Positions 36,065 to 52,248 of a DNA stretch of 64,000 nucleotides are shown piece by piece. Source of the stretch: Hoeflea sp. YIM 152468 (GTDB lineage: Bacteria; Pseudomonadota; Alphaproteobacteria; Rhizobiales; Rhizobiaceae); NCBI RefSeq assembly GCF_029210485.1, contig NZ_JARGET010000005.1:1-64000 (forward strand), read 5' to 3'. The position numbers and the translations under genes are program-made. Each line of letters opens with the position of its first letter. Positions within the stretch are counted from its first letter, which is position 1. A model generated the notes under the pieces. The model was given only the letters and a program-made list of their open reading frames with translations. It made no database searches and was not told the DNA's origin.

Positions 36065-37798
36065 TTAAAGCACCAGGGCGCCGCGGGTTTGATAGATTGA
36101 AGGCGATTCATCGCCCTTGTCGCGAAGCGCGATGCCGAGCGCATTGACCAGGGACGCGACACCGTCGATCCGTTGCGTCGATTTGTTCTTGGCTGGCTTG
36201 ATATTTCCGGCTGCATCTTCCTCGACCGCAACGACCTTGGCATGCTGCCTCAGCACCGGATGGCCACCATGATGAAACCCATTGTCCAGCACCAGCCGCT
36301 CAAGTTCTGCCGAGGGCGCCGCCAGCGAGGCAAAGCCCTGACCGAACAGAACCACAGGCAAACCTTCCTGCTGCAACTCGATTGCCATCTGGGTTGCGTT
36401 CCATCGGTCGATTGCCAACCCGCCCTGGCCATCCTCCAGCTTCTGCGCGCCGGCATGTGCAATACTGAATTTCTCGCCATCATCCAGTATCTGCTTCTTG
36501 ATGAAAGCGTAGTCGACCACATTGCCTGGCGTAGCCGTGATCGCACCCTCGTCCACCCACCTTTCATAAGGCAGTTTGTCACGCCGCCCGTGCTCTCTCA
36601 GAAGCCGTGATGGTTTGAAAAACCGGGAAAGAAGCGCCGGTTTTTCGAGACCGGGCTGGATCGGAAACCACCATGTTAGCGCCGAAATATCCTGCACTGC
36701 CGACAGGTCGAGCCCGCCAAAGCAGCGCTTTCCAGCGAGGTGATCTTCCAACTCCTTCCAACCGATCGGCCCTTGGCAATGATCCCATCCGAACGGGTTG
36801 CCATCATCATCTACCGCATCTATCGGCAACCAGATCGACGCCTGGTCGGTCCACATGTTGAGCTGGTAATTCTTGAACCCGTTAACCAGCCGCGGCAATT
36901 GCCGTGCGCGTTTGGCCGCGGCTTCCATGGCTGACAGCTTTTTCGAGATACCCAGATTGGGATTGGCTTTCGCCCAGACCTTCGGGTCGGTCCAGTCGTC
37001 GTCAGGATCAGCGGCATAGATCACAACCAGCGTTTCCGGGTCGTCAATGCTACCGTCACGTATAGCCTGGCATTCGTCCCAGACCTCTTCGCCGTAACCT
37101 CCCTTCTTGCCTGCTGTCGAGATCAGGAATTCCAGTGGCTGGCGCCGGGCCGAACTTGAATCATGAACGAAGCTGTAAAGCTCGCCATCCTGCCATTCGT
37201 GAATTTCGTCACCGATCAACCCTGAGGATGAAAGCCCGTGCTTGCCGCCTGACTTGCCAGACAGCGGCTTGAATGCCGCGTTGAGCTCCGGGCAATAGAC
37301 CGATGTCTTGTAACCCTCCAGAACCTGCCCCAGCGTCGGCGACCGCTGCACCATCGCGATGGCCTTGGTGAAGCAGAGTTCCGCCTGATCCTTGTTGGTG
37401 GCAATCGAATAGACCTGACCGGCGGGCTCACCATCGCCGACCAGCATCAGGATGGCCATGCCGGCAGCCAGTTCGGTCTTGCCGTTTTTGCGTGGCACCC
37501 AGACAAACACCCGGCGGTAACGCCGCGTGCCGTCTGGTCGCTTCCAACCATACACCGGGCGAACGATGTCATGCTCTTGCCAGTCAGCCAGGTCGAATGG
37601 ACGCCCGGCCCACTCACCTTCCGTCAGAACCAGATGGTCAGGGAAGAACCGCGCCGCCTTTTCAGCCGCCGCTTCATCAAACCAGAATTCACCGTCCGTC
37701 CAGACGCCCCGCTCCCCATCCCATTTGCAATGGACAGGCACCGCTTTCGGTCGGCGGCGCGGCCTTCCGGCCTTTGGTTGCCTCACCTGGACAGCCAT
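36065..37798 (-). CDS. Terminase large subunit (packaging ATPase-nuclease)
   Basis: 577 residues. Walker A-type loop in VFVWVPRKNGKTELAAGMAI (about 100-120), Walker B-type GLIGDEIHEW, motif III region LEFLISTAGKKGGYGEEVWD. The C-terminal RNase H-like nuclease begins FGGLDLSAVQDISALTWWF with Asp residues for metals. HK97/P27-type TerL. Two bp after TerS. Confidence 0.95.
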   Translation of the reverse strand: MAVQVRQPKAGRPRRRPKAVPVHCKWDGERGVWTDGEFWFDEAAAEKAARFFPDHLVLTEGEWAGRPFDLADWQEHDIVRPVYGWKRPDGTRRYRRVFVWVPRKNGKTELAAGMAILMLVGDGEPAGQVYSIATNKDQAELCFTKAIAMVQRSPTLGQVLEGYKTSVYCPELNAAFKPLSGKSGGKHGLSSSGLIGDEIHEWQDGELYSFVHDSSSARRQPLEFLISTAGKKGGYGEEVWDECQAIRDGSIDDPETLVVIYAADPDDDWTDPKVWAKANPNLGISKKLSAMEAAAKRARQLPRLVNGFKNYQLNMWTDQASIWLPIDAVDDDGNPFGWDHCQGPIGWKELEDHLAGKRCFGGLDLSAVQDISALTWWFPIQPGLEKPALLSRFFKPSRLLREHGRRDKLPYERWVDEGAITATPGNVVDYAFIKKQILDDGEKFSIAHAGAQKLEDGQGGLAIDRWNATQMAIELQQEGLPVVLFGQGFASLAAPSAELERLVLDNGFHHGGHPVLRQHAKVVAVEEDAAGNIKPAKNKSTQRIDGVASLVNALGIALRDKGDESPSIYQTRGALVL

Positions 37799-37800
37799 GA

Positions 37801-38364
37801 TTACTGCAGAAAGCCGATCGTCTTACCGTGCGTGGATGCCGGAACGCTGGGTTGGGTCGGCGATGCCGGCGCAGCAGGCATGGTCTGGCCCCGGAACAGA
37901 TCATCCGCGCCGGGCGTCTTGGCCGCACGGGCAGCAAATATCCGCTGTCGTTCTGCCGGGTTGAGACCGAAGACCGATTCCGCCGAGACCAGTTGGCGCT
38001 CCAGACGGTCGGCGATCATGTAAGCCGGGTCCGCGCGCCTGACCGTGCCGGACGCTGTTTCGATTTCATAAATCTCGCCCATGTCATCAAGCCGGGTTTG
38101 CATGCTCAACCACCGCGCATAGTTGCGGCAGTAGCGTGCGAACGTGTCAGCATCGGTTTGCGTGAGCAGCTTCAGCGCCACCAGACGCGGCGCGATCTTC
38201 TTCCAGATCTTCAGGCCCGGCCCCTTGAGCCATGTCGGATGGGTGATACTGGACGCGACTGCACCGCCGGCCTCGACCGGATCACTGCCGATCTTGCGAC
38301 GACCGGGATTTCCCTTCGCTGCTTTCACCGCCGCCGGTTCCGGCTTCGGTCCACGCCTTGACAT
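37801..38364 (-). CDS. P27-family terminase small subunit
   Basis: 187 residues: RRGPKPEPAAVKAAKGNPGR at the start, WLKGPGLKIWKKIAPRLVAL and LTQTDADTFARYCRNYARWL, the P27 family core. It binds the packaging initiation site. An A/T-rich 100-bp segment lies upstream of its start (38365-38464). Confidence 0.93.
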   Translation of the reverse strand: MSRRGPKPEPAAVKAAKGNPGRRKIGSDPVEAGGAVASSITHPTWLKGPGLKIWKKIAPRLVALKLLTQTDADTFARYCRNYARWLSMQTRLDDMGEIYEIETASGTVRRADPAYMIADRLERQLVSAESVFGLNPAERQRIFAARAAKTPGADDLFRGQTMPAAPASPTQPSVPASTHGKTIGFLQ

Positions 38365-39069: not shown

Positions 39070-39744
39070 CTAAATCTTGAGCTGGTCAAGCCCCAGCTCA
39101 ACCGGCGTGATCCGACCGAAGATATTCACCTCCACTTCCGCGCGGCCATGGCTGCGCATCACACGCCTGATCTTCGCCTCGAACGCGGCAAACGGACCAT
39201 CCCTGACAATGGCCGACATCCCGGCCCGGATACGCGGCACCAGGCTTGCCACTTCCGGGCTTTTCACCTTGATCATCAAGGTGTTGATCTCACTGGCCGG
39301 GATCTTCGCCGGCACACCGTCAACCCCCAGATAGCCCGTCACACGACCTGCAATGCCAGCGCCGATCCATGCTTCTGCACAGTCGGGCAAACGCAGGAAA
39401 ACATAACCTGTGAAGATCGGTCTTTCCACCGTCACCGCAGGGCGACCACGCTTCGCATTCCGCCGCTCACTGGCCATCGGACACCACACAGCAATCGATC
39501 TGGCCTTAAGTTCATCAGAGGCGATTCGCTCCTGGCCGACCGGCACACGGGCAATCACCCACTCAAGCCGCTCATCGTCGATGCGGCCGCACGCCGCCTT
39601 CATCAGCCGGTCAGCGCTGCCGGCTTCCAGCCCGCACCGGCGGATCTCATCATCAATCCGCGCACGCTGCTCTGTGGTCAACTCTCCCGGATTGACCTGC
39701 CTGCCGTTCAACCGCCTGCCCTTGAATGTGGAATTGTGCATCAC
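39070..39744 (-). CDS. NusG/RfaH-like transcription factor of the phage
   Basis: 224 residues. N-terminal helical part (about 1-60), then an NGN-like domain (LEWVIARVPVGQERIASDEL, IAVWCPMASERRNAKRGRPA, RPIFTGYVFLRLPDCAEAWI). A C-terminal KOW-type beta domain follows (RAGMSAIVRDGPFAAFEAKI, EVEVNIFGRITPVELGLDQL). NusG paralogues bind RNA polymerase and suppress pausing and termination on chosen operons. The gene lies immediately before the packaging and structural genes, the place of a late antiterminator. Confidence 0.85.
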   Translation of the reverse strand: MMHNSTFKGRRLNGRQVNPGELTTEQRARIDDEIRRCGLEAGSADRLMKAACGRIDDERLEWVIARVPVGQERIASDELKARSIAVWCPMASERRNAKRGRPAVTVERPIFTGYVFLRLPDCAEAWIGAGIAGRVTGYLGVDGVPAKIPASEINTLMIKVKSPEVASLVPRIRAGMSAIVRDGPFAAFEAKIRRVMRSHGRAEVEVNIFGRITPVELGLDQLKI

Positions 39745-40982
39745 GCCGTCGTCTCCTTTTGCGGTGTCGAAAGGGCCTCGAACGCGGCCAAACCTTCCGG
39801 CCCGCCGACCGGAAAATACATACCCTTCATGCCGTCATGGCGCGGCCACATCGGCCAGCAGCGAGCCTTGTATTCGGCTTCCCATGCCGCCCAGGCGTTG
39901 CAGCCTTCGGGCACGAATTCCATCTGGTCCTTGAGCGCATGCAGCCGTGGCGGCAGAATGACACCGCGCTTCATCGCGGCCATCTGGTGCAGCCCCGCCA
40001 TCTCCGGCCAGGCGCGGCGCAGATCTCCGGCCAGCCACAACGGGCCATCCGGCGCATAGTCGCGGTGCTCTGGCCCCTTGAGCAGCACAAGGTGCAGATA
40101 GGCGGAGAACACCGGCCCCATCGACACCGCCCAGCCTTCGGGCTTGGCATGCTCGGCGGGCTTTGCGCCCTGCGCCGCCGCCTTCATCGCCCGCTGCAGC
40201 AGCTCCGGATCCAGCCCTTCCCACAACCGGTCGCGGAAGAACGTGCCCACCGGCACCGGCTTTTTGCGCCGCGTGGCGATGTCACGCAGATAGGCATCGC
40301 GCCAGCGTTCGGCATGCTGCCGGTCGGCTTCCGACAGCTTGGCAAACTGCCGCCCGATCCATCCCGGCGAGGATGTGTCCCAGTCCGGCCAGGGACCGGC
40401 GGCAAAGTCCCGTCCATTGCAAAAGCGCATGACCCGTTTCTGAAAATCAGCCGTTTCCGGCACTGTCGACGGATCAGGCTTGTCTGAAATTTCCTCTTCC
40501 TGCCCTTCCCCGTCCGCATCCGCGCTTGCGCGCTCTCTCTCTGTTACAGGTTCTATTACTGGTTCCCTTACAGGGTTAGAGTCCGAATTTCGGACACGGG
40601 ATTGGCCTTTTTTCGGACACGGACCAGCCCCTTTTTCGGACACGGCTGCACTGCTTTTTCCATGTCCGATTTCCGGACACGGTTTTGCGGGTTCTTCACG
40701 TGTTTCAGCCATTTCAAATCCCAGCACATATTGGGTCGGCAACTGCTTCCCGGTCTCCGGGCAACGGCCCGCCGCCCGCCGGATCAGGCCCGCATCCTCA
40801 AGCTTTTCGAGGTGCAGATTGACCGTCGACCGGCTCATTTCGCAGGCATCCGCCAGCCATTCCTGCGAAGGAAAACACCCAAGTTTCGGGTTGTGGCAAT
40901 CGGCCAGATGCCACAGCACGATCCGCGCCGCAGGCTTCAGCCCGCGCCGTGTAATCGCCCAGTTGGTCGCTGCATGGCTCAT
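39741..40982 (-). CDS. Winged-helix replication initiator-like protein
   Basis: 413 residues. N-terminal winged helix (about 15-75, ARIVLWHLADCHNPKLGCFP, WLADACEMSRSTVNLHLEKL, EDAGLIRR). Then a low-complexity linker (about 95-190) whose DNA holds four iterons, and a C-terminal domain (DFQKRVMRFCNGRDFAAGPW, AERWRDAYLRDIATRRKKPV) of unknown fold. Winged-helix plus internal iterons resembles lambdoid O-type initiators that bind an origin inside their own gene. Coupled to the methylase gene by ATGA and to the NusG-like gene downstream. Confidence 0.7.
   Translation of the reverse strand: MSHAATNWAITRRGLKPAARIVLWHLADCHNPKLGCFPSQEWLADACEMSRSTVNLHLEKLEDAGLIRRAAGRCPETGKQLPTQYVLGFEMAETREEPAKPCPEIGHGKSSAAVSEKGAGPCPKKGQSRVRNSDSNPVREPVIEPVTERERASADADGEGQEEEISDKPDPSTVPETADFQKRVMRFCNGRDFAAGPWPDWDTSSPGWIGRQFAKLSEADRQHAERWRDAYLRDIATRRKKPVPVGTFFRDRLWEGLDPELLQRAMKAAAQGAKPAEHAKPEGWAVSMGPVFSAYLHLVLLKGPEHRDYAPDGPLWLAGDLRRAWPEMAGLHQMAAMKRGVILPPRLHALKDQMEFVPEGCNAWAAWEAEYKARCWPMWPRHDGMKGMYFPVGGPEGLAAFEALSTPQKETTA
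40540..40685. repeat. Iteron array, candidate phage origin
   Basis: TTTCGGACACGG starts at 40588, 40611 and 40634 (exact 23-bp spacing), with a one-mismatch copy TTCCGGACACGG at 40671. The first and last are preceded by GTCCGA, making inverted repeats (GTCCGAA-T-TTCGGAC at 40581-40595). An A/T-richer tract with TTACAGG words (40552-40580) adjoins. All lie within the initiator-like gene. Confidence 0.65.
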
Positions 40983-42787
40983 TCCGCAGCCTCCCTGAAT
41001 TGCGCCAGATGCGGAACATTGGCCCGCGTGATGGCTTCGGCCAGCGGTGGACAGACGCTGTTTCCGGCGCGTCCCACCTGGTCCGATTTGGAGAACATGT
41101 TGCCTTCCAGATCCCGGTCGATCTGATAGTCGGGCGGAAACCCCTGGGCGTTGAACAGCTCGCGCGGTGTCAGCATCCGCATGCCGATATCGACCATGAC
41201 CAGTGTCACGCCCTCGACGTCGAGCGTGACGAATTCCCGGTCATCCCAGAAGCCGTGTGCGCGCAGGAAACCCGCCACCTCGCGCGCCCGCGCGTGATGC
41301 TCCGGGCCGAACGGCGGCGCCGCCATGGCCGCCTGAGACAGGCAGAACCGGTCCTTCGTCGTCACCGTGTGCAGCGGCCCGGATGGCTCCTGTCCGTCTC
41401 CGGTGCCGTAATACTTGGTCAGCGCACCCGCGACGACCGCCGACTGCCCGCCGCCGGTGCAGGCCACCCGCGCAGGCTCATCCGCCCCGCTGGCGCGCCG
41501 CGCGCTGCCCTTCATCGAGAACATGTTTGCGGCCACGACCTGGCACTGGCTTCCGGCCTGCGTGACCGTCGCCAGTGGCGCCGCGGCGGCACGGCCAATC
41601 ACGCCATTGCCGTTGTGCTGCGCCATATAGGCAGCTACCGGGGCATGTTTCACGCCACCGGCCACAACAGTGCCGAGCGGCGCGGACGGGTCGAGCGCGC
41701 GCGCCGCCTGCCCTTCCCGCTCGCCATAGCCGGTCTGCACCAGCGAAGCGGCGACACAGGTCAGCCCGGCCCCGCCGGCGGTCACCGTGTGCGCCGGCTC
41801 ATCCGCACCCTGGAATGGCTTACCGGCGTTGCGCATGGTCATCAGATGCGGAGCAACCACCGCATGCTGCACCCCGCCCACCGTGACCGTGTGATAGGGC
41901 TCTTCGACCGGATACTCCCGCCGCCCGCCGCTGTCGCCGTGCGCGATCGACACCAAGAACGGCCTTGCCGCATCCAGCACATAGCGCTTGATGCCACGCG
42001 CCACCCGGGCTTGCGTGTTTGCCGCCAACGGCCGCACCGCGCGCAGCCCGTACCGGGCCATGATTTCGGCCTTGGTGTCGAAGATCGACGGGCAGGCAAT
42101 CGACCAGTCGATCACATCGCACCCGGCTGTCAGCCATGGCTTGAGCTTCCCGCTCTTCACCTCGTCGCTGTCCGGGCTGGCATGTGTCGGCTCCGGCCAG
42201 ACGATCTTCTGACCGTCGAACCGGATCAGGATGAACACCCGCTTGCGGATGGTCGGCGCGCCGTAATCGCAGGCCCGCAATTCGCGCCATTCGATCTTGC
42301 CGCCAAGCTGCCTGAGCTTTCTGCACCAGGCACGGAAAGTCTCACCCTTGCGCTCCGGGTCCGGCACCAGTCCCTTGCCGGTGGTCAGCAGCGGCCCCCA
42401 GGTCTGGAATTCCTCGACATTCTCGATCGCCACCACATCGACCTTGCCGCCCGATCTCTGGATTCGCTCGATCCAGCCCGGAATGATCCAGGCCAGATCG
42501 CGGATATTGCGCTGCACCGGCGCGCCGCCCTTGGCCTTGGAGAAGTGCTTGCAGTCGGGCGAAAACCACGCAAACCCGATATGGGCGCGGGCGAAATGAT
42601 CGAGCGGGTCGACCTGGTAGACATTCTGGCAAAGATGGATGCTGTCGGGATGATTGACCGCATGCATGGCGACTGCCACCGGGTCGTGATTGATGGCAAA
42701 ATCCGGCGAACGGCCGAGCGCCATTTCAATCCCCGTCGAAGCGCCGCCGCCACCGGCGAAACAGTCGATAATCAAGGGTCTCGTCAT
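40979..42787 (-). CDS. DNA cytosine-C5 methyltransferase with a repeat-containing TRD
   Basis: 602 residues. Motif I IIDCFAGGGGASTGIEMALG, motif IV FSPDCKHFSKAKGG (catalytic Cys kept, PPC replaced by PDC), motif VI AIENVEEF, motif IX MLTPRELFNAQGFPPDYQID, motif X GNSVCPPLAEAI. Between motifs VIII and IX lies a target region of about 200 residues built from about six degenerate repeats of DEPAHTVTAGG...VVA. Methylation probably protects phage DNA; no partner restriction enzyme is seen. Confidence 0.93.
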   Translation of the reverse strand: MTRPLIIDCFAGGGGASTGIEMALGRSPDFAINHDPVAVAMHAVNHPDSIHLCQNVYQVDPLDHFARAHIGFAWFSPDCKHFSKAKGGAPVQRNIRDLAWIIPGWIERIQRSGGKVDVVAIENVEEFQTWGPLLTTGKGLVPDPERKGETFRAWCRKLRQLGGKIEWRELRACDYGAPTIRKRVFILIRFDGQKIVWPEPTHASPDSDEVKSGKLKPWLTAGCDVIDWSIACPSIFDTKAEIMARYGLRAVRPLAANTQARVARGIKRYVLDAARPFLVSIAHGDSGGRREYPVEEPYHTVTVGGVQHAVVAPHLMTMRNAGKPFQGADEPAHTVTAGGAGLTCVAASLVQTGYGEREGQAARALDPSAPLGTVVAGGVKHAPVAAYMAQHNGNGVIGRAAAAPLATVTQAGSQCQVVAANMFSMKGSARRASGADEPARVACTGGGQSAVVAGALTKYYGTGDGQEPSGPLHTVTTKDRFCLSQAAMAAPPFGPEHHARAREVAGFLRAHGFWDDREFVTLDVEGVTLVMVDIGMRMLTPRELFNAQGFPPDYQIDRDLEGNMFSKSDQVGRAGNSVCPPLAEAITRANVPHLAQFREAAE

Positions 42788-43439: not shown

Positions 43440-44023
43440 GCTTGCGCCCACGCCGAATATTCCGCCCGCATCTCGCGCCAGCGGCCAGCCGCATCCGGGT
43501 CGGTGTTGAGCTGCGACCGGCTTTCAATCGCCAGCGCCCGGCGCAGCACCGCCGCCGCCGTGGCGCTGTCGGCCAGGTCGCCATCATCATCGGTGGCGTG
43601 ATGGAGCCTGAGCCATGCCTGAAACCCCGGCTCGCCGCATTTTATCGACGCTTCGGCCGCCAGATTCTTGACCCGCGCCGGCCCGGCCGGTGGCGCCACC
43701 CTGTCGAGCCGCGCCCGCTGCTCACGGATCAGCCGGCCCGCAGCCGTCAACTGATCGAGAACGAAGGCCAGATCACTGCGCGCCTCGCGGACGAATTCCT
43801 TTTCAAACCAGGACGCATCCGGACCGAAACTGCACAGCGCCACCGGCGCCTCATTGCCCGCATGGCGGCCCTGACTGTCGATCACCGCGCGGGTGATGAC
43901 GATACTCTCTCCGGCATCGGAAAACTCATGGCTCCAGCGGTCGGCCCGCACCCGCGCCAGCCGCTCGCGGATTTCATCGAGCCGGGCGCGGATTTCGCCG
44001 GGTGTGACGGGCGCGGCGGTCAT
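43436..44023 (-). CDS. Phage protein, unknown function
   Basis: 195 residues from the ATG at 44023 (ATGA overlap). N-terminal helix pair (EIRARLDEIRERLARVRADR), a beta segment (GESIVITRAVIDSQGRHAGN), a coiled helix (FVLDQLTAAGRLIREQRARL) and a helical C-terminus. Unrecognised. Confidence 0.65.
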   Translation of the reverse strand: MTAAPVTPGEIRARLDEIRERLARVRADRWSHEFSDAGESIVITRAVIDSQGRHAGNEAPVALCSFGPDASWFEKEFVREARSDLAFVLDQLTAAGRLIREQRARLDRVAPPAGPARVKNLAAEASIKCGEPGFQAWLRLHHATDDDGDLADSATAAAVLRRALAIESRSQLNTDPDAAGRWREMRAEYSAWAQA

Positions 44024-45357
44024 GGTCTTGGCCTCACGCTGTCGCCGTCCCTGACGGCTGCGCTCCGGCCAGGGCGGCGCACCGGCGCCGGCGCCCGGTC
44101 GGGCTTGCGGCCAGCGGCCGGGCTGTTGTCTCCTGCCGCTTCGGTCCGTCCGCCCTCGCCCTCGCCCTCGGCCTCGAAGCCCCAGAAGGTCCAGCCGTCC
44201 GGCGCCACGCCCCGGCCAAACAATTCGAGCTTGGGCAAGCTGGGAAACATGGTGTCGATTATCTCGCGGAACCGGTGCGGCTTGGCCGAGTGCTCGGTCT
44301 TTGGTTCGGTATAGACACTCAGCGGCTGCGTCCCCGGCAGCGGGCAAGGCGGGTCACCCCGCTTGCAGATCATCAGCACTTCGTGACAATCGATCACCCA
44401 GCGCCCGGTGCCGCGATGCACCTTGTTCCACATGATCTCGGTAACGACCTCGAACCCCCAGGCCTCCACGACCTCAAGCGCGGGGCGCTGGCGGTTGCCG
44501 GTACGCCAGAAAAACAGCACCGCATCATCGGTGAACGGGCTGGCGTCACCGGCGCACAGCGCCTTGATCTCGTCGAGCGGCAGGGTCGGATAGGGATAGG
44601 CCCGGTCGTTGCCTGTCTCATGATCCCAGACGTTCGCCTGCTCCCACGGCACATCGGCATAGCCGACGGCGAAGGCTTTCGCAGGCAGCGCGCCCGGCCT
44701 TGCACGCTCGAGCCCCTTGGCCGAAATTGCCGCCATCAGCGACAGCCTGCCCGCCCGCGATGCAGCCATCTTTTCGGTGCGCAGCGCCTTGGCCGTTTCC
44801 AGCACCGCCCGGTCACCGGCTTTCAGCAACCGCTGCACATCCGGGTCAGGCAGCGTCTTGAGCGCATCGGCGGTGTGAACCGTGACGCGGCCATCGCGAA
44901 TGGCGTCAAACAGCGCCGGAGCTCCATGCTTGCGGATCGAGCGGCAGGCCGCCACGGCCCGCTCGGAGATCGACAAGGCCCGCGCCGCCTGCCGGGTCTG
45001 CAAATTTGCAGGCCCCGACGTGTGCTGGTTGACCCCCTTCTCCCAATTGACCAGTTGCGCCGCAATGGCCGCGCGCTGGCTTTCGCTCAAATGCCGCCGG
45101 GCCAGGTTCTTCGACAGCACGAAGGCCAGCGCATCAACGCCGTCATATTCGGTCACCATGCCATCGGGCACCAGCCCCAGTTCGGCACAGGCCGCCTGCC
45201 GGTTGCGGCCGTCGAGCACCTGGCCATCCAGCGTCACGATCGGCTCGCGCAGGCCGTTGTCGGCAATATCCTGCAGGAAGGCGGCAAAGGTCTCGCCATC
45301 CATCGCCGGAAACAGGGTGCACAACGGGTGCAGCGGCAGGAAGGGAAATTCACTCAT
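44020..45357 (-). CDS. ParB-like domain fused to MT-A70 adenine methyltransferase
   Basis: 445 residues. Residues about 1-110 form a ParB/sulfiredoxin-type domain (LCTLFPAMDGETFAAFLQDI, GLREPIVTLDGQVLDGRNRQ, LSKNLARRHLSESQRAA). A ParB-like HTH linker follows to about 215. Residues about 220-390 are an MT-A70 N6-adenine methylase (FAVGYADVPWEQANVWDHET, DAVLFFWRTGNRQRPALEVV, EIMWNKVHRGTGRW, KPHRFREIIDTMFPSLPKLE). The catalytic DPPW motif is DVPW here, an unusual substitution. The C-terminal 50 residues are low complexity. Confidence 0.88.
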   Translation of the reverse strand: MSEFPFLPLHPLCTLFPAMDGETFAAFLQDIADNGLREPIVTLDGQVLDGRNRQAACAELGLVPDGMVTEYDGVDALAFVLSKNLARRHLSESQRAAIAAQLVNWEKGVNQHTSGPANLQTRQAARALSISERAVAACRSIRKHGAPALFDAIRDGRVTVHTADALKTLPDPDVQRLLKAGDRAVLETAKALRTEKMAASRAGRLSLMAAISAKGLERARPGALPAKAFAVGYADVPWEQANVWDHETGNDRAYPYPTLPLDEIKALCAGDASPFTDDAVLFFWRTGNRQRPALEVVEAWGFEVVTEIMWNKVHRGTGRWVIDCHEVLMICKRGDPPCPLPGTQPLSVYTEPKTEHSAKPHRFREIIDTMFPSLPKLELFGRGVAPDGWTFWGFEAEGEGEGGRTEAAGDNSPAAGRKPDRAPAPVRRPGRSAAVRDGDSVRPRP

Positions 45358-45574
45358 GGCGCATCACCTTGGGTTTTTCCCAGGCACCGAGAGCCGGGTT
45401 CCAGTGGTGGCGATAGTCAAACGCCCGGTCATCGCCCGAAGCCAGGCCGGCGCCATCGAGCGGCACCGACCTGATGCCGGCGGCAAACCCGGCCCGCCAG
45501 ATCTTGCGGACCAGAACCGCAAGCCCGAAGCCGCCGACGACACACCAGCCCAGCATGAAGGGATCAATCATCAT
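45350..45574 (-). CDS. Small membrane protein
   Basis: 74 residues, one hydrophobic segment (PFMLGWCVVGGFGLAVLV), then a soluble tail ending WNPALGAWEKPKVMRHE. Overlaps both neighbours. Unknown role. Confidence 0.6.
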   Translation of the reverse strand: MMIDPFMLGWCVVGGFGLAVLVRKIWRAGFAAGIRSVPLDGAGLASGDDRAFDYRHHWNPALGAWEKPKVMRHE

Positions 45575-46182
45575 GCCGCCCGCCCGCCATCATCACCGGC
45601 AAGCGGCACCAACCCGCGGCTGCGCTGCCTGATCACCGCCGCCTCGGTCCGGTTGACCGGTTGACCGGCGTGAATCAGCGCCCGTATGGCCCGCGCCTCT
45701 GCCCGGCTTCCGGGCCATCTGTCGCGGCCATAAATCGCGGTTGTGTGGTCGCGCCCGCCCATCTGCCGACCCACCATGGTGGTCGACATCGAGGTGCGCC
45801 GCAGCGCCCAGTGGGTCACGAAAAACCGCGCCATCACGATCCGCCGGGTGCGCCGGATGCTCTTGATATCCGCCTTGGTCACGGCGAAAGCGCGCATGGC
45901 TATCCCCATCAGCCGGTCCATTTCGCTGCTCATCGCCGGGGCAAACTGGACCACTCCGAATCCGTGCGCCAGCATCCGCAATTCGCCCGTCGTGCGGCCT
46001 TCCAGCACCAGCGCCACATCGGCGCCGTGCAGGGTGGCATAGCGGCTGAAGCGCAGGGTCGAAGTCACGCCGCCATCGGCCAGCGCATCGGCCAGCGCAG
46101 CCTGCATCCGCTGCTTGAAGACCGGTTGCCCTGTGCGGCGCGGAGCCGCAACTGCATCCAGGGCTTGTGTGTGCAACACCAT
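45571..46182 (-). CDS. Stand-alone DnaA domain IV protein
   Basis: 203 residues from the ATG at 46182 (GAGGAGTGAAAGCG upstream). The first 100 residues are unrecognised. Residues about 110-160 match the DNA-binding domain IV of DnaA: ADIKSIRRTRRIVMARFFVT, then LRRTSMSTTMVGRQMGGRDH followed by TTA. GGRDHTT is the DnaA signature that reads the DnaA box. There is no AAA+ ATPase domain. It could occupy DnaA boxes in phage or host DNA. Neighbouring genes encode GcrA- and GapR-like proteins. Confidence 0.82.
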   Translation of the reverse strand: MVLHTQALDAVAAPRRTGQPVFKQRMQAALADALADGGVTSTLRFSRYATLHGADVALVLEGRTTGELRMLAHGFGVVQFAPAMSSEMDRLMGIAMRAFAVTKADIKSIRRTRRIVMARFFVTHWALRRTSMSTTMVGRQMGGRDHTTAIYGRDRWPGSRAEARAIRALIHAGQPVNRTEAAVIRQRSRGLVPLAGDDGGRAA

Positions 46183-46187
46183 CGCTT

Positions 46188-46409
46188 TCACTCCTCTGCC
46201 GTTTCGCGCATCGCCTGATGCCTGAGCACCTGCAGCGCGCTGCGCTCGCCTTGCGTGCCGGTGCCCACAGCGCGCGCTGCATGCGCCGCGCAATAGGAAC
46301 TGCCCCTGGCCGCCACCTCACCGCAAAACCGGTGACCGCCGCTGTCATGCGCATCATCAACCGGCCAGCGGCAGTGATGCCTGGAGAGATCGAGAAGGGA
46401 CAAACTCAT
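46188..46409 (-). CDS. GcrA C-terminal domain alone
   Basis: 73 residues. HHCRWPVDDAHDSGGHRFCG and ARGSSYCAAHAARAV reproduce the C-terminal motif of GcrA (C-K/R-W-P-[IV]-G/D-D ... FCG ... G-x-x-YC-x-x-H), including the three Cys and the His. Full GcrA is about 170 residues with an N-terminal DNA-binding helix-turn-helix, which is absent here. In Caulobacter this C-terminal domain is the part that contacts sigma-70. Start overlaps the GapR-like stop as TGATG. Confidence 0.8.
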   Translation of the reverse strand: MSLSLLDLSRHHCRWPVDDAHDSGGHRFCGEVAARGSSYCAAHAARAVGTGTQGERSALQVLRHQAMRETAEE

Positions 46410-46726
46410 CACGCCCCCTCCGGATCTGGCGCCATACCCAGCGCGTGCAGATAGGTGTCGAGGATCGCTTCCTGCTCGAGCCGCTCGCTCGGATCGACCT
46501 TGCGGATCGCAATCACCCGGCGCAAAACTTTGGCGTCATAGCCCATGGCCCTGGCCTCGCCGTAGACATCCTTGATGTCGTCGGCGACCACCTTCTTGTC
46601 CTCTTCCAGCCGCTCGATCCGTTCGACGAACGCGCGCAACTGGTCCCGCGCCACAGCCCCGGCATCCGACGAATTCACCGGCACCGTCTGCCGTGGCGCA
46701 TAGGGATCGTGCACAGCGCCGCTCAT
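46409..46726 (-). CDS. UPF0335/GapR-like nucleoid protein
   Basis: 105 residues. Core [40 protein letters not shown] and [20 protein letters not shown] match DUF2312/UPF0335, the family of Caulobacter GapR. GapR clamps overtwisted DNA ahead of replication forks and RNA polymerase. The phage copy may assist phage replication or compete with the host protein. Coupled at both ends. Confidence 0.9.
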
Positions 46727-46845
46727 GGCCGGTCACCCCGGCCAGAGGCCGCAAGGGCAAGCGCCCGCCGCGCGTTGTCGCGCGCCCCGTCTGGAGCGCA
46801 GCCGCCACAGGCGGCGACAGCGTGAAGACAGATCAACCCGCTCAT
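46723..46845 (-). CDS. 40-residue Cys-rich peptide
   Basis: ORF ([20 protein letters not shown] at the start) with ATGA overlaps at both its start and stop, which strongly suggests translation. C-x5-C-x2-C spacing ([11 protein letters not shown]) could bind metal. Function unknown. Confidence 0.5.
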
Positions 46846-47366
46846 GGCTCACCTGCCTTGAAAGCCACCACCTGGCCGCCGTCGGCCGCGCCGCGGGCCA
46901 GAGCCATATCAAGACTGGCAAGCAGCTCACGCACTGGCGCGGTCTGGCGGGATATGAATGACAATTCGTTGGGTGTCAGTTGCCCATCGGCCAGAGCGTC
47001 GGCGACAGCCATGGTCAACGCCCCGACCTTGCTCATGATCGCATTGTTGCACCGGAAGACATCGGCGGTCAGTTTGGCCTTGTCTCCCCCATCACTTCCG
47101 GGCGCGGCCAGGCGGTGTCCGTTGAGTTCAGCCATTGCTGCAGTTACAAACGGAACTCCGGCCTCCGCCTCCAGAACAGCGACCACCGGCAGCGTCATCA
47201 CGGCCGGGTGATCCCGGTTGTTGAAATTGCCCATCTGGCCGGTGGACAATCCGGTAAATTCAGCCGAGCATTTTATACCACCCGCCCGCTCAATCAGCGC
47301 GCGTTGCGCAGACTTGATCCGTGGAAGCCATCCCCTTGGCAACGGCACCGCATATTCGCCACTCAT
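46842..47366 (-). CDS. CII-position phage regulator-like protein
   Basis: 174 residues. Starts MSGEYAVPLPRGWLPRIKSA; KCSAEFTGLSTGQMGNFNNR could be an HTH, followed by a helical C-terminal half (MSKVGALTMAVADALADGQL, LSFISRQTAPVRELLASLDM). Pattern and position resemble proteins named phage regulatory CII-like in rhizobial prophages; that name is tentative. The 145-bp gap upstream (47367-47510) holds no gene. Confidence 0.55.
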   Translation of the reverse strand: MSGEYAVPLPRGWLPRIKSAQRALIERAGGIKCSAEFTGLSTGQMGNFNNRDHPAVMTLPVVAVLEAEAGVPFVTAAMAELNGHRLAAPGSDGGDKAKLTADVFRCNNAIMSKVGALTMAVADALADGQLTPNELSFISRQTAPVRELLASLDMALARGAADGGQVVAFKAGEP

Positions 47367-47750: not shown

Positions 47751-48294
47751 GGGCAATTCCGCCTTTGCGCTCGATTTCGGCAACCACAAGCCGCGCCACG
47801 GCGCCGGACAGGCTTTCGCCATGTTCGGCCGCCAGCAGGGCCAGCAGCCCCGCCGCATCGGCACTGATGTGAAGGGTAACGAGGTCAACGGCCGCAGGCC
47901 GCAAGCCCGACCGGGCGTCGGCGCCCGCAGCGCCGCCGGCGGGCAAAGTGTGAGAGCGCCGCTCGCGCGCGAGGTCAACCAACTCGAGGCCCGGCGCGGG
48001 AGGAGGATGCGCCGGGCCCCTGCCACGACCGGAGGCCGCCGCGGCATCGCCGGAGGCGCGGGAGGAGGATGCCCCGCCGGCGAAGGAAATATCGGGATCA
48101 TCCGGACGGGAGAGAGAAAGGGGATCAGATCCCCCGCCCGGCGTTCCGGCAGTCACGGCCTTCAGACCGCCGGGAAGGAAACTGGTTGCAGGGGCCGGAT
48201 TCGAACCGGCGAACTCCTGGTTATGGTGAGCCGCAGGCGAACGGCGGGATGGACCAGACTTCCCCACCCTGCAATTGAAAACGGCCTCACTCAT
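47743..48294 (-). CDS. ORF with RHH-like C-terminus, overlapping a tRNA-like gene
   Basis: 183 codons from the ATG at 48294, which overlaps the preceding stop (ATGA). The N-terminal 40 codons are the translation of the tRNA-like element (QEFAGSNPAPATS is what a T arm looks like in this frame), then a Pro/Ala/Gly/Ser low-complexity stretch. Only the last 50 residues look protein-like (VDLVTLHISADAAGLLALLA, SGAVARLVVAEIERKGGI), similar to ribbon-helix-helix DNA-binding proteins. The real protein may start downstream at a non-ATG codon. Coding status of the 5' half is doubtful. Confidence 0.45.
   Translation of the reverse strand: MSEAVFNCRVGKSGPSRRSPAAHHNQEFAGSNPAPATSFLPGGLKAVTAGTPGGGSDPLSLSRPDDPDISFAGGASSSRASGDAAAASGRGRGPAHPPPAPGLELVDLARERRSHTLPAGGAAGADARSGLRPAAVDLVTLHISADAAGLLALLAAEHGESLSGAVARLVVAEIERKGGIAHV
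48183..48273 (-). tRNA. tRNA-like gene with aberrant anticodon region
   Basis: 91 nt on the minus strand. Acceptor stem TGCAGGG/CCCTGCA is perfect (7 bp), with discriminator A and encoded CCA. The T arm GCCGG-TTCGAAT-CCGGC is perfect and canonical. The D arm GGGA...TCCC has a GG-containing loop. The 34 nt between D and T arms do not form a standard 5-bp/7-nt anticodon arm. Model 1: the 3' strand CCAGG plus variable loop AGTTC with a CAT near the loop, like initiator or elongator tRNA-Met, but with about 12 extra nt. Model 2: a GCCG/CGGC arm plus a long variable region. Anticodon unassigned. Confidence 0.6.
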
Positions 48295-48623: not shown

Positions 48624-49031
48624 ATGTTGAAAGATGTCGTCACACGCATAGAAGCACAGCTTGAGCTCAAGGGACTGAGCGCGTCAAAAGCCTCGGAAGC
48701 CGCAGGCTTGAGCCGCGATGCGATCCGCAACCTGCAAAGAGCGGTGCACGACGGCAAGGAGGCAGGCGCATCCACGAGAACAATCACGGCGCTGGCCACC
48801 GTTCTGGAGGTCTCACCGGCATGGCTGCTGACCGGCCAGGGACCGGAAACTACCGAATCACCGGCTGACGGATCAGATCCGGATCACACTCTGTTCACCG
48901 AAACCGAGATCCGCACAGCCATCGAGAGCATTTTGAATAATGGCGCGATGCGCGATGAGCCCGCCCCTATCGTCTCCGCCCTGGTGATCTCGATCATGAT
49001 CGAGCGCCGCCGCCAGAGCCGCAGCCGTTAA
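48624..49031 (+). CDS. Phage repressor (CI-type XRE regulator)
   Basis: 135 residues. N-terminal XRE helix-turn-helix: VVTRIEAQLELKGLSASKAS, EAAGLSRDAIRNLQRAVHD, ALATVLEVSPAWLLTGQGPE. A short C-terminal helical part (about 85-135) replaces the usual LexA-like self-cleaving peptidase; no Ser-Lys pair is visible. Induction must therefore differ from lambda, for example by antirepressor. Divergent from the Cro-position gene and flanked by matching operators. Confidence 0.85.
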   Translation: MLKDVVTRIEAQLELKGLSASKASEAAGLSRDAIRNLQRAVHDGKEAGASTRTITALATVLEVSPAWLLTGQGPETTESPADGSDPDHTLFTETEIRTAIESILNNGAMRDEPAPIVSALVISIMIERRRQSRSR

Positions 49032-50810: not shown

Positions 50811-51022
50811 CAGAGCCCGCCGCAATCAGCCAGACACCAGCCAGGAAGGCCACCCGTGTGCGCGCCAGCGAGAATGCCTTGAGCGTGGCGCTCAAGGTGG
50901 CACGGGCGGAGGGGCTGGCTGTGGACAAGCTGTTGATAAGCGGTGGACGGTTCGAGCTGCACTTTGCCGGCGTTGAGCGTGACGCAAGCCCGGAGCACGA
51001 TGAAGGCCTTGAACAATGGTAG
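50807..51022 (+). CDS. Small protein upstream of integrase, excisionase position
   Basis: 71 residues: ARKATRVRASENALSVALKV then GLAVDKLLISGGRFELHF. ATGA-coupled to the gene before and 8 bp from the integrase start. Its size and place fit a recombination directionality factor, but no MerR-type helix-turn-helix is visible. Confidence 0.45.
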   Translation: MTEPAAISQTPARKATRVRASENALSVALKVARAEGLAVDKLLISGGRFELHFAGVERDASPEHDEGLEQW

Positions 51023-51030
51023 GGGCCAGC

Positions 51031-52098
51031 ATGAACATCGATTATCCAGGCTTGTTGAAAGAGCCACTGCCCTCGGGCCAGGTCCGCTACCGGGTTCGGC
51101 CGGAGGGCCAACCGCGCAAGCGCATCACCATCCACGCCAGCCCAGGCGACGAGGATTTCCAGCGGCAATACCTTGCCGCCCGGCGCGGCGGCACCGCCAA
51201 AACCGTCAAGCCGGCGTCAACCTATGCCAAGCCGCGCTCGATCGGCTGGCTGGTCAACACCTATTTCGAATATCTCGAGGCCCGCGTTTCAGCCGCGACA
51301 ACCAGCGCCAAGACCTTGAAGAAAAAGCGCAACCTGCTGGCGCGCCTGCTCAAGCGGCCCGACCGCGTGATGCTGATCCCGCAAGAAAAGCTGATCGAGA
51401 TGCAGGACGGAATGGCAGCAACTCCCGCCCAGGCCGACGCCTTCATCGAGGCCGTCGCCGTGATGTATGACTGGGCGGTCAAACGCAAGCACGTCTCGCA
51501 CAACCCGGCCCGCGGCATCGACCGCGTCTATGTCAAAGGCCATGGCGCCACGCCGTGGAAGGCGGATGATGTGCGCGCCTTTTTCCAGCGCCACAAGGCA
51601 GGCTCAAAACCCCACGTCGCCATGTCGCTGCTGCTGTGGACCGGATGCCGGGTCGAGGATCTGACCACACTCGGCCGCCGCCATGAATGCGTGATCGAGG
51701 GTGTCGAGGCGATTCGCTGGACGCCGGGCAAGAAGGGATCGTCGGAGGTGGCGATTCCGTTGCTGCCGCCCCTCAAGACCGCCACGCGGGCGCCGATCGT
51801 GCAGGGCGCGACCTATGTGCTGGGCCGCGGCGGCAAGCCTTATGCGAGCGGCGACAGCATGTCTGCCATGGTCAAGCGCTGGTGCGCCGATGCCGGGCTT
51901 GGCCACCTGTCGGCACATGGTGTGCGCAAGGGCCTGGCCGAACTGCTGGCCGAACTGGGTTGCTCGCAATATGAAATCATGGCGATTCTCGGCCATTCCG
52001 AGGCGCGAACCAGCGAGGTTTACACCCGTCGGGTCGAGCGCTGGAAGCTCGCGCTGGGCGCGATGGACCGGGTCACTGTATCAGGCGCTTGGATCTGA
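51031..52098 (+). CDS. int: Tyrosine-family phage integrase
   Basis: 355 residues from the ATG at 51031. N-terminal arm-binding and core-binding regions (VRYRVRPEGQPRKRITIHAS, WLVNTYFEYLEARVSAATTS). Catalytic domain: first Arg in LLLWTGCRVEDL, Lys in TPGKKGSSE, HGVRKG supplying His-x-x-Arg, LGHSEARTSEVYTRR with the second His-type position and nucleophile Tyr. Lies next to attR in tRNA-Leu, as expected for an integrase acting on that tRNA 3' end. Confidence 0.95.
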   Translation: MNIDYPGLLKEPLPSGQVRYRVRPEGQPRKRITIHASPGDEDFQRQYLAARRGGTAKTVKPASTYAKPRSIGWLVNTYFEYLEARVSAATTSAKTLKKKRNLLARLLKRPDRVMLIPQEKLIEMQDGMAATPAQADAFIEAVAVMYDWAVKRKHVSHNPARGIDRVYVKGHGATPWKADDVRAFFQRHKAGSKPHVAMSLLLWTGCRVEDLTTLGRRHECVIEGVEAIRWTPGKKGSSEVAIPLLPPLKTATRAPIVQGATYVLGRGGKPYASGDSMSAMVKRWCADAGLGHLSAHGVRKGLAELLAELGCSQYEIMAILGHSEARTSEVYTRRVERWKLALGAMDRVTVSGAWI

Positions 52099-52163: not shown

Positions 52164-52180
52164 TGGTGCGGTCGAGAAGA
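52164..52180. repeat. attR core within tRNA-Leu
   Basis: Second copy of TGGTGCGGTCGAGAAGA, equal to the last 17 nt of the tRNA gene including CCA. Confidence 0.9.
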
Positions 52181-52248
52181 CTCGAACTTCCACGGGTTGC
52201 CCCACAGCGACCTCAACGCTGCGCGTCTACCAATTCCGCCACGACCGC
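52164..52248 (-). tRNA. tRNA-Leu(GAG)
   Basis: 85 nt with encoded CCA. Acceptor GCGGTCG/CGACCGC, D arm GCGGAATTGGTAGACGC, anticodon arm CAGCG-TTGAGGT-CGCTG with anticodon GAG, long type II variable arm (TGGGGCAACCCG region), T loop TTCGAGT. Reads CUC and CUU. Integration leaves the gene complete because the phage supplies the same 3' end, but its terminator is now phage DNA. Confidence 0.96.

Follow-up and report, generated by a model that had tools for sequence, protein, structure and literature searches.

The cofactor GcrA consists of a DNA-binding domain (residues 1-45) and a sigma-interacting domain (SID, residues 108-173) that binds sigma2, according to the available part of PMC7403470. 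Phage-borne GcrA is already in print (PMC3556154, excerpt). A second point of comparison is the gene transfer agent of Caulobacter, in which GafY binds domains 3-4 of sigma70 and activates with IHF, while GafYZ antiterminates (PMC11150451, excerpt). Activation of the gene transfer agent promoters requires the N-terminal, DnaA-like domain of GafA (PMC9638019, excerpt). The DsbA protein of T4, called a GapR homolog, might recruit the host polymerase to late promoters (PMC7824862, excerpt).

Here, we describe a prophage in which a GapR copy, a fragment of GcrA and a protein built around DnaA domain IV (DnaA-IV) are encoded side by side. We propose, with a probability of roughly one half, that this trio may be part of a phage transcription-control block that would act via the sigma70 polymerase, by a logic akin to that of GcrA and GafY.

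Prophage and early operon

The window, that is, the whole stretch of DNA analysed, covers 64 kb at the start of a contig of 385 kb. It contains a prophage with an integrase, a repressor-like gene, an early chain on the minus strand, and packaging and virion genes (Table 1). The first-pass annotation had described three adjacent genes in an early operon. Both gene arrangement and position were confirmed: the trio lies on the minus strand between a CII-like regulator and an O-like initiator, in a chain of mostly overlapping ORFs that runs from the CII-like gene (47366) to ~39070. The genes had also been described as translationally coupled. Indeed, the stop of the GapR gene and the ATG of P0002 have one base in common, and P0003 starts 5 nt past the stop of P0002. 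However, most other genes of the chain overlap a neighbour by a few bases too, and hence coupling is not peculiar to the trio. Gene starts are those of the longest ORF rather than of a gene caller; P0002 starts at GTG 46412 or ATG 46409, and the open frame of P0003, whose 203 aa are counted from its ATG, extends to 46293.

Table 1. Prophage features in the window, ordered from integrase to packaging genes.
Feature	Position	Strand	Evidence
Integrase	51016-52098	+	prophage gene
Repressor-like gene	48624-49031	+	prophage gene
CII-like regulator, upstream end of the operon	46842..47366	-	phrog_101 CII-like activator 2e-16; Phage_CP76 6e-4, under cut-off
P0001, GapR/UPF0335 copy, 105 aa, host-like lineage	46409..46726	-	PF10073 6.4e-32; tree
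P0002, GcrA sigma-interacting domain alone, 74 aa	46188..46412	-	PF07750 positions 100-151; 7ye1, 5yix_B
P0003, 203 aa, DnaA domain IV between N- and C-terminal parts of its own	45571..46182	-	PF08299 2e-12; 3pvp, 1j1v
Small gene, overlaps the P0003 stop by 4 nt	45350..45574	-	ORF
ParB-like N-domain + MT-A70 methyltransferase	44020..45357	-	PF05063 4.8e-17; phrog_21315 2e-123; ParB-like phrog_4715 5e-8
Lambda O-like replication initiation protein	39741..40982	-	phrog_270 1e-30; phrog_345/391 O-like
NusG-type antiterminator, which ends the chain	39070..39744	-	PF02357 1.4e-9; phrog_6386 transcription antiterminator 1.2e-33
Terminase small + large subunits; packaging and virion genes begin	36065..38364	-	Terminase_4, TerL_ATPase, TerL_nuclease

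The small gene after P0003 had no match in Pfam, PHROGs or NCBIfam. Relatives of the ParB-MT-A70 gene, which follows it, occur repeatedly near DnaA-IV genes in viral loci. Further along the same operon, the ORF at 40979..42787 (-) overlaps its neighbours and presumably encodes a C5 cytosine methyltransferase, going by motifs read in the sequence. Between the end of the early chain (~39070) and the terminase lies an HNH-endonuclease-like gene, whose best PHROG label is terminase small subunit. The terminase is followed by portal, capsid and tail genes, all on the minus strand. A terminator-like hairpin at the end of the NusG-type gene (39101-39077) fits the consensus only, and is a weak signal given 17 such sites against 10.2 expected. 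At the other end of the prophage, a tRNA-Leu (GAG) at 52164-52248 (-) directly follows the integrase gene and is a possible attachment site. At 48183-48273, ARAGORN further called an unusual tRNA whose anticodon is incomplete.

The three proteins

Profile searches placed all three proteins above the curated Pfam cut-offs of the families first named for them, GapR, GcrA and DnaA_C. P0001 contains the GapR DNA-binding domain (GapR_DNA-bd; 109.4 bits, cut-off 22.6). It reached subfamily PRK13694 (121.6 bits, threshold 94), missed the threshold of the full-length GapR equivalog of NCBIfam (93.1 of 140 bits), and matched strongly a PHROGs family of unknown function. The host has full-length copies of each family outside the prophage, namely one GcrA (contig C14), one DnaA (C8) and one other GapR (C4), the last of which is 77% identical to P0001 over residues 11-105. 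In a 134-tip tree that included as host sequences the 30 best matches to P0001, P0001 was placed with the GapR of the host's genus and of one further genome (support 0.73), inside a wider clade of 11 host tips, 6 phage tips and P0001 itself (support 0.90). Most simply, P0001 would be a host gene acquired by the phage lineage.

P0002 matches only the end of the GcrA profile (45.8 bits, cut-off 26.9, 1e-11; positions 100-151 of 155), such that the N-terminal DNA-binding domain of GcrA is absent from this 74-aa protein. It scored 27.8 of the 280 bits set for the full-length GcrA equivalog of NCBIfam, missing the threshold, and its PHROGs match was weak (0.0027). Residues 4-49 align to the SID of the Caulobacter protein in 5yix (chain 5yix_B) and 7ye1, where they correspond to GcrA 108-151. 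Since P0002 aligns only to the region given as sigma-binding (108-173) in the available part of PMC7403470, it comprises that domain alone. Cys14, Cys30, Cys41 and His44 form a Cys3His set that is invariant across 17 aligned domains. The AlphaFold model (mean pLDDT 85) had three matches in the PDB, all of them GcrA chains, with probabilities of 0.99-1.00 at modest E-values (0.047-0.13). Its match to 5yix_B, from a structure of the sigma-interacting domain with sigma70 domain 2, had an rmsd of 1.7 over 46 columns and a probability of 1.00.

Among 247 genomes, P0002 scored 42-55 bits against its five best matches, a few of them second, prophage-like GcrAs, compared to 33 bits for the GcrA of the host itself. 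Two of these five, in G096 and G153, adjoin a GapR gene and look like prophage genes. Furthermore, a tail of the GxGTxxERxA type is common to P0002 and 9 of 11 aligned prophage or phage GcrAs, but is absent from the host GcrA. P0002 thus appears closer to the phage GcrA family than to the host GcrA, although the evidence is weaker here because single-copy GcrAs from other genomes reach up to 39 bits.

P0003 contains DnaA domain IV at residues about 87-155 (Bac_DnaA_C; 47.4 bits, cut-off 31.5; profile positions 7-66 of 69), flanked by N- and C-terminal parts of its own. PF08299 was the one Pfam domain found in its 203 aa, and both the AAA+ domain and domain I of DnaA are absent. Accordingly, each of P0002 and P0003 is cut to a single domain, as the first-pass annotation had read them, and the structural models agree. 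The full-length DnaA equivalog of NCBIfam was missed (38.2 of 343.9 bits), and PHROGs gave no match to P0003. Its AlphaFold model has a mean pLDDT of 69 overall and is confident only at the DnaA-IV part (residues about 90-160), where its best matches are 3pvp (E 7e-4) and 1j1v (E 0.008), both of them complexes of DnaA domain IV with DNA. Aligned to the host DnaA, P0003 keeps the equivalents of R399, R407, R432, D433, H434, T435 and T436, whereas those of Q408, K415, P423 and R442 are changed. We take this numbering to be that of E. coli DnaA; it agrees with the residues named in PMC9638019 (excerpt).

In the tree of P0003, 15 phage or prophage-like proteins form a clade with it before others join (supports 0.24 to 0.89). 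Its nearest neighbour comes from genome G151, where the gene next to it encodes a GcrA. This tree is only a guide, as its deeper groups are mixed, one GafY-labelled tip falls among phages, and oversized proteins are included. P0003 resembles phage families more than the host DnaA in these comparisons. The ancestry of the trio therefore appears mixed, with a host-like GapR and with P0002 and P0003 more like phage families. The earlier description of the trio as being of host origin suits GapR (77% identity; genus clade, 0.73). P0003 instead falls in a clade of phage and prophage-like proteins, and P0002, on weaker evidence, also leans away from the host GcrA (33 bits).

The host also carries a GafY-like gene, at 369.8 kb of contig C36, beside genes read as MucR-, GafZ- and SufE-like; these names come from ORF reading and from the synteny in the available part of PMC9638019. 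This mucR-gafY-gafZ-sufE locus (L011, 3035-5241; about 369-371 kb of C36 in genome G000) lies outside the prophage and matches what would be expected of a control locus for a gene transfer agent. In 50 of 61 family genomes, GafY-like matches were found. Profile A1 matched the host GafY-like protein with 87.5% probability, and a single-sequence BLASTP of P0003 against that protein gave nothing. Orthology of P0003 to GafY was ruled out by the tree, in which P0003 nests with phage or prophage-like proteins, by synteny and by the residue pattern.

DnaA boxes and the host cell cycle

The first-pass annotation proposed that the trio redirects host replication, for which we found no positive evidence. 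DnaA boxes were not enriched in the window (19 sites with one mismatch allowed, versus 15 expected). Across 72 phage loci, oversized-DnaA loci included, TTWTNCACA was not clearly enriched either (36 versus 34 expected), while exact TTATCCACA occurred 7 times versus 2.7 expected. Box enrichment, absent in the window and weak at most in the phage loci, was therefore dropped as support for DnaA-box binding. Two one-mismatch boxes whose starts are 11 bp apart lie just upstream of the integrase start (50920-50939, -), perhaps inside another ORF; they could be due to chance.

On this reading, DnaA-IV would compete with the host DnaA at the boxes of oriC, the free SID would compete with the host GcrA for sigma70, and extra GapR would alter supercoiling of the host chromosome, so that host replication and cell-cycle transcription come to favour the phage. 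Both reduced proteins keep just the part that would compete, i.e. the base-reading residues of P0003 and the sigma-contacting fold of P0002, the latter devoid of a DNA-binding domain. Full-length host targets exist in the genome, and the GcrA of phiCbK phages has been proposed to change the state of the host (PMC3556154, excerpt). However, we consider this explanation unlikely. Most of the phage GcrAs found are longer, with a region ahead of the SID. Of 45 nonredundant proteins, 8 have a SID match that starts at or before residue 45, and three of these eight, each 158 aa long, open with a DNA-binding-like stretch. Moreover, the position of the genes tracks the packaging genes of the phage.

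Recurrence in other phages

Viral contigs were scanned with anchors on DnaA-IV, GapR, phage GcrA and short GcrA fragments. The DnaA-IV scan used the best 80 of at least 400 confirmed candidates, and the GapR scan the best 80 of at least 418. We left out by hand 17 DnaA loci (15 with an AAA+ motif and 2 of >320 aa without the motif) as well as L136, which has an over-long ORF. This gave 57 nonredundant DnaA-IV loci from the best 80. In the fetched flank, 34 of these had neither partner, 14 had GapR, 4 had GcrA and 5 had both. GapR was on the same strand in 19 loci; GcrA was on the same strand in 8 and on the opposite strand in one. Both partners were located nearer to DnaA-IV than expected from uniform placement (P about 5e-5 for the 19 GapR and 1e-4 for the 8 GcrA), at mean distance fractions of 0.24 and 0.16, respectively, versus 0.5. 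Yet, the unrelated ParB-MT-A70 gene is likewise close to DnaA-IV (fraction 0.27, 7 loci, P 0.018), and hence the clustering may reflect merely a shared early region.

Among 64 nonredundant GapR-anchored loci from the best 80, 14 had a same-strand DnaA match (oversized DnaA kept) and 10 had GcrA. The 17 nonredundant GcrA-anchored loci had GapR in 6 and a same-strand DnaA-IV in only 1. A stand-alone DnaA-IV gene on the same strand occurred in 7 of 44 nonredundant SID-anchored loci, in 6 of these 7 within 450 bp (stop of one gene to domain of the other) and in several with overlapping ORFs; the DnaA-IV neighbour in L363 fell under the threshold and is uncounted. All three families were found on one strand in viral loci L097, L098, L106, L113, L195/196, L205/206, L212 and L146, the last of which differs from the others in having an AAA+ DnaA. 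These same-strand trios span 1.2 to 9.6 kb in several gene orders.

Single-sequence scans of the viral contigs proved too narrow, with nothing for P0003 and one locus for P0002. A tblastn search of 50,697 phage records matched P0003 in 4 and P0002 in 8. Of five annotated phage records, L006 has DnaA-IV and GapR, L007 has DnaA-IV and a GapR domain, and in L009 GapR directly precedes GcrA. Ten loci of family genomes, picked by a short-ORF match to P0003 (247 searched; 18-20 kb fetched), had GapR in L044, L045 and L048, and GcrA directly beside in L043.

Given DnaA-IV, both partners were seen in 5 loci, compared to 3.0 expected from the single frequencies (worked by hand). There is no clear three-way excess, and the trio as more than its parts is unsupported. 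Together with the varied gene orders, this shows that the three families are members of one shuffling block and not an obligate trio. As to the co-occurrence and order that had been suggested as a check, the families recur, clustered and upstream of the terminase, but in shuffled order. One might go further and regard the early operon as a mosaic that gathers unrelated small regulators, swapped singly, with adjacency but without joint function. This would fit the variable order among trio loci, the 34 of 57 DnaA-IV loci (from the best 80) without GapR or GcrA in the fetched flank, a trio no commoner than its parts predict, and the mixed ancestry. We think it distinctly improbable, however, as DnaA-IV and GcrA, when together, are mostly very close in the SID-anchored set (6 of 7 within 450 bp).

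Several viral contigs (L099, L110, L121, L156, L159/L160) encode DnaA homologs of 406-427 aa with a Walker motif and unusual N-termini; in L159/L160 the homolog is directly followed by a GcrA-like gene.

Position relative to packaging genes

Terminase genes were sought with four seed proteins only. All 27 of the 57 DnaA-IV loci (from the best 80) with a recognised terminase had it downstream of DnaA-IV on the same strand, at 3.2-9.3 kb (flanks end at 10 kb). A CII-like gene was upstream of DnaA-IV in all three loci of this set that have one. Relatives of the NusG-like gene of the prophage (39070-39744) occurred in 14 of the 57 loci, downstream of DnaA-IV in 14/14, and between DnaA-IV and the terminase in all 9 loci where this could be tested. 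In the GapR-anchored set (from the best 80), the NusG-like gene was downstream in 12/14 and on the other strand in 2/14.

An initiator-like gene was found downstream of stand-alone DnaA-IV in all 5 loci with both (of the 57, from the best 80), and the block of the prophage likewise lies upstream of an O-like initiator. Possibly, DnaA-IV and GapR serve the origin of the phage together with this initiator, by site recognition and topology. It is domain IV with which DnaA recognises origins, and DnaA homologs that have an AAA+ motif occur on some phage contigs. Still, this explanation strikes us as rather improbable: neither the initiator gene (39741-40982) nor the 3 kb around it contains a DnaA-box-like site at up to one mismatch, and the sigma-binding GcrA fragment would be left unexplained.

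Proposed role of the block

The position relative to terminase and NusG-like genes, together with the biochemistry of the relatives, points to phage transcription at least as much as to host replication. Lambda-like phages have an antiterminator at a comparable position. For a transcription-control block acting via sigma70 polymerase, we infer the following steps from protein to function. The block would sit in the early (lambda pR-like) operon of the phage as a regulatory unit. The DnaA-IV protein would act as a transcription factor that recognises a DnaA-box-like DNA site, and the GcrA fragment would dock on domain 2 of the host sigma70 and strengthen promoter opening. GapR might coat A+T-rich or overtwisted DNA while the phage is being heavily transcribed and replicated. 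The three proteins and the NusG-type protein at the end of the operon would jointly direct the host's RNA polymerase to the promoters of the phage and onward into the late genes. Such a logic would parallel that of gene transfer agents, where GafY is responsible for sigma70 activation and GafZ for antitermination. Host replication and cell-cycle genes would be affected only secondarily.

A more specific version, which we advance tentatively and would not bet on, is that of a split and re-aimed GcrA, in which the sigma70-holding part is kept and the DNA-reading half is replaced by the DnaA domain IV of the next gene. The pair would act as a two-part activator at DnaA-box-like sites, instead of at methylated GANTC promoters. 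In line with this idea, fragment and DnaA-IV genes overlap directly in L097/L342 and L141/L358; L336 and the window are further cases in its favour. The window and L336 were found via the finding itself or the DnaA-IV anchor, and L097 and L141 were first found via the DnaA-IV anchor as well. In the SID-anchored set, DnaA-IV lies beside 2 of 5 SID-only genes and within 450 bp of 4 of the 39 others. Three short GcrAs in whole genomes (L337, L338 and L339; 81-104 aa) had no DnaA-IV in the fetched stretch of up to 10 kb on each side. In L343, a SID-only GcrA without DnaA-IV beside it instead has a gene read as helix-turn-helix and then a lone CtrA-type DNA-binding domain. With such lone CtrA-type domains in similar blocks, alphaproteobacterial phages could run a miniature DnaA-GcrA-CtrA circuit.

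The rule that a GcrA fragment without a DNA-binding domain is always accompanied by DnaA-IV was rejected, as it held in 2 of 5 SID-only loci (L342 = L097 and L358 = L141) and, within the fetched stretches, for none of the three short GcrAs from whole genomes.

Short proteins in L236 (3188-3541), L338 (8696-9070) and L343 (10500-10856) carry a lone winged-helix DNA-binding domain of the CtrA/OmpR type, as do, by profile, proteins in phage loci L131, L211, L195, L212 and L123. Pfam Trans_reg_C gave 3e-11 for L236, values under the cut-off for L338 and L343, and none for L212. A 480-aa ORF in L186 (4098-5540, -) has a partial GcrA match and a CtrA-type DNA-binding domain, and is a possible fusion. 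In L336 (9725-10478), from an Opitutae MAG contig binned outside Alphaproteobacteria, the DnaA-IV gene overlaps the gene of a 74-aa GcrA fragment, which may reflect either the binning or a spread of the phage.

If the proposed role holds, alphaproteobacterial phages seize the sigma70 polymerase by means of single domains of the very regulators that govern the host cell cycle, and the block would be the phage counterpart of the gene transfer agent control system. The 74- and 203-aa proteins would then offer a probe of whether the sigma-binding half of GcrA works once a different protein provides the DNA-reading half.

Comparison with known systems

In agreement with the first-pass annotation, which knew of no description of the trio as a unit, we found no publication naming GcrA, DnaA, GapR and phage together; the literature covered included little of the subscription journals. 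Within the same coverage, we found no description of the set or of its single-domain forms, of its location ahead of the terminase, or of its NusG-like and CtrA-type company. The phiCbK-like phages with their GcrA homologs provide a likeness as carriers of cell-cycle regulators (PMC3556154, excerpt), and a table on phiLM21-like Sinorhizobium prophages has entries for GcrA, DnaA (COG0593) and UPF0335 singly (PMC12429752, excerpt). In contrast to our locus, the available parts of these two sources describe neither a neighbouring set nor single-domain forms (PMC3556154, PMC12429752).

P0001 differs from the GapR (UPF0335) of the host, to which it is 77% identical, in being phage-encoded and in sitting in an early operon. 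Like GcrA, the sigma70 cofactor of Caulobacter (PF07750), P0002 has the sigma-interacting domain with its Cys3His set, and its model matches 5yix_B. However, it is devoid of the N-terminal DNA-binding domain and the linker, and it carries the GxGTxxERxA-type tail inside a predicted C-terminal helix. P0003 shares the fold and the base-contacting residues of DnaA domain IV, whereas the AAA+ domain and domain I are missing and other contact residues are partly lost.

Compared to GafY, P0003 keeps the His at DnaA position 434, where GafY-like proteins have Arg in 29 of 30 cases (phage residue counts were based on 87 domains, with oversized proteins left out). The two are not orthologous, the host has a separate GafY-like gene elsewhere, and no GafZ-like gene was noticed next to P0003. 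What P0003 has in common with GafY and the N-terminal part of GafA is that it is a small protein with a DnaA-domain-IV-like DNA-binding domain and without AAA+, encoded upstream of phage-type packaging genes.
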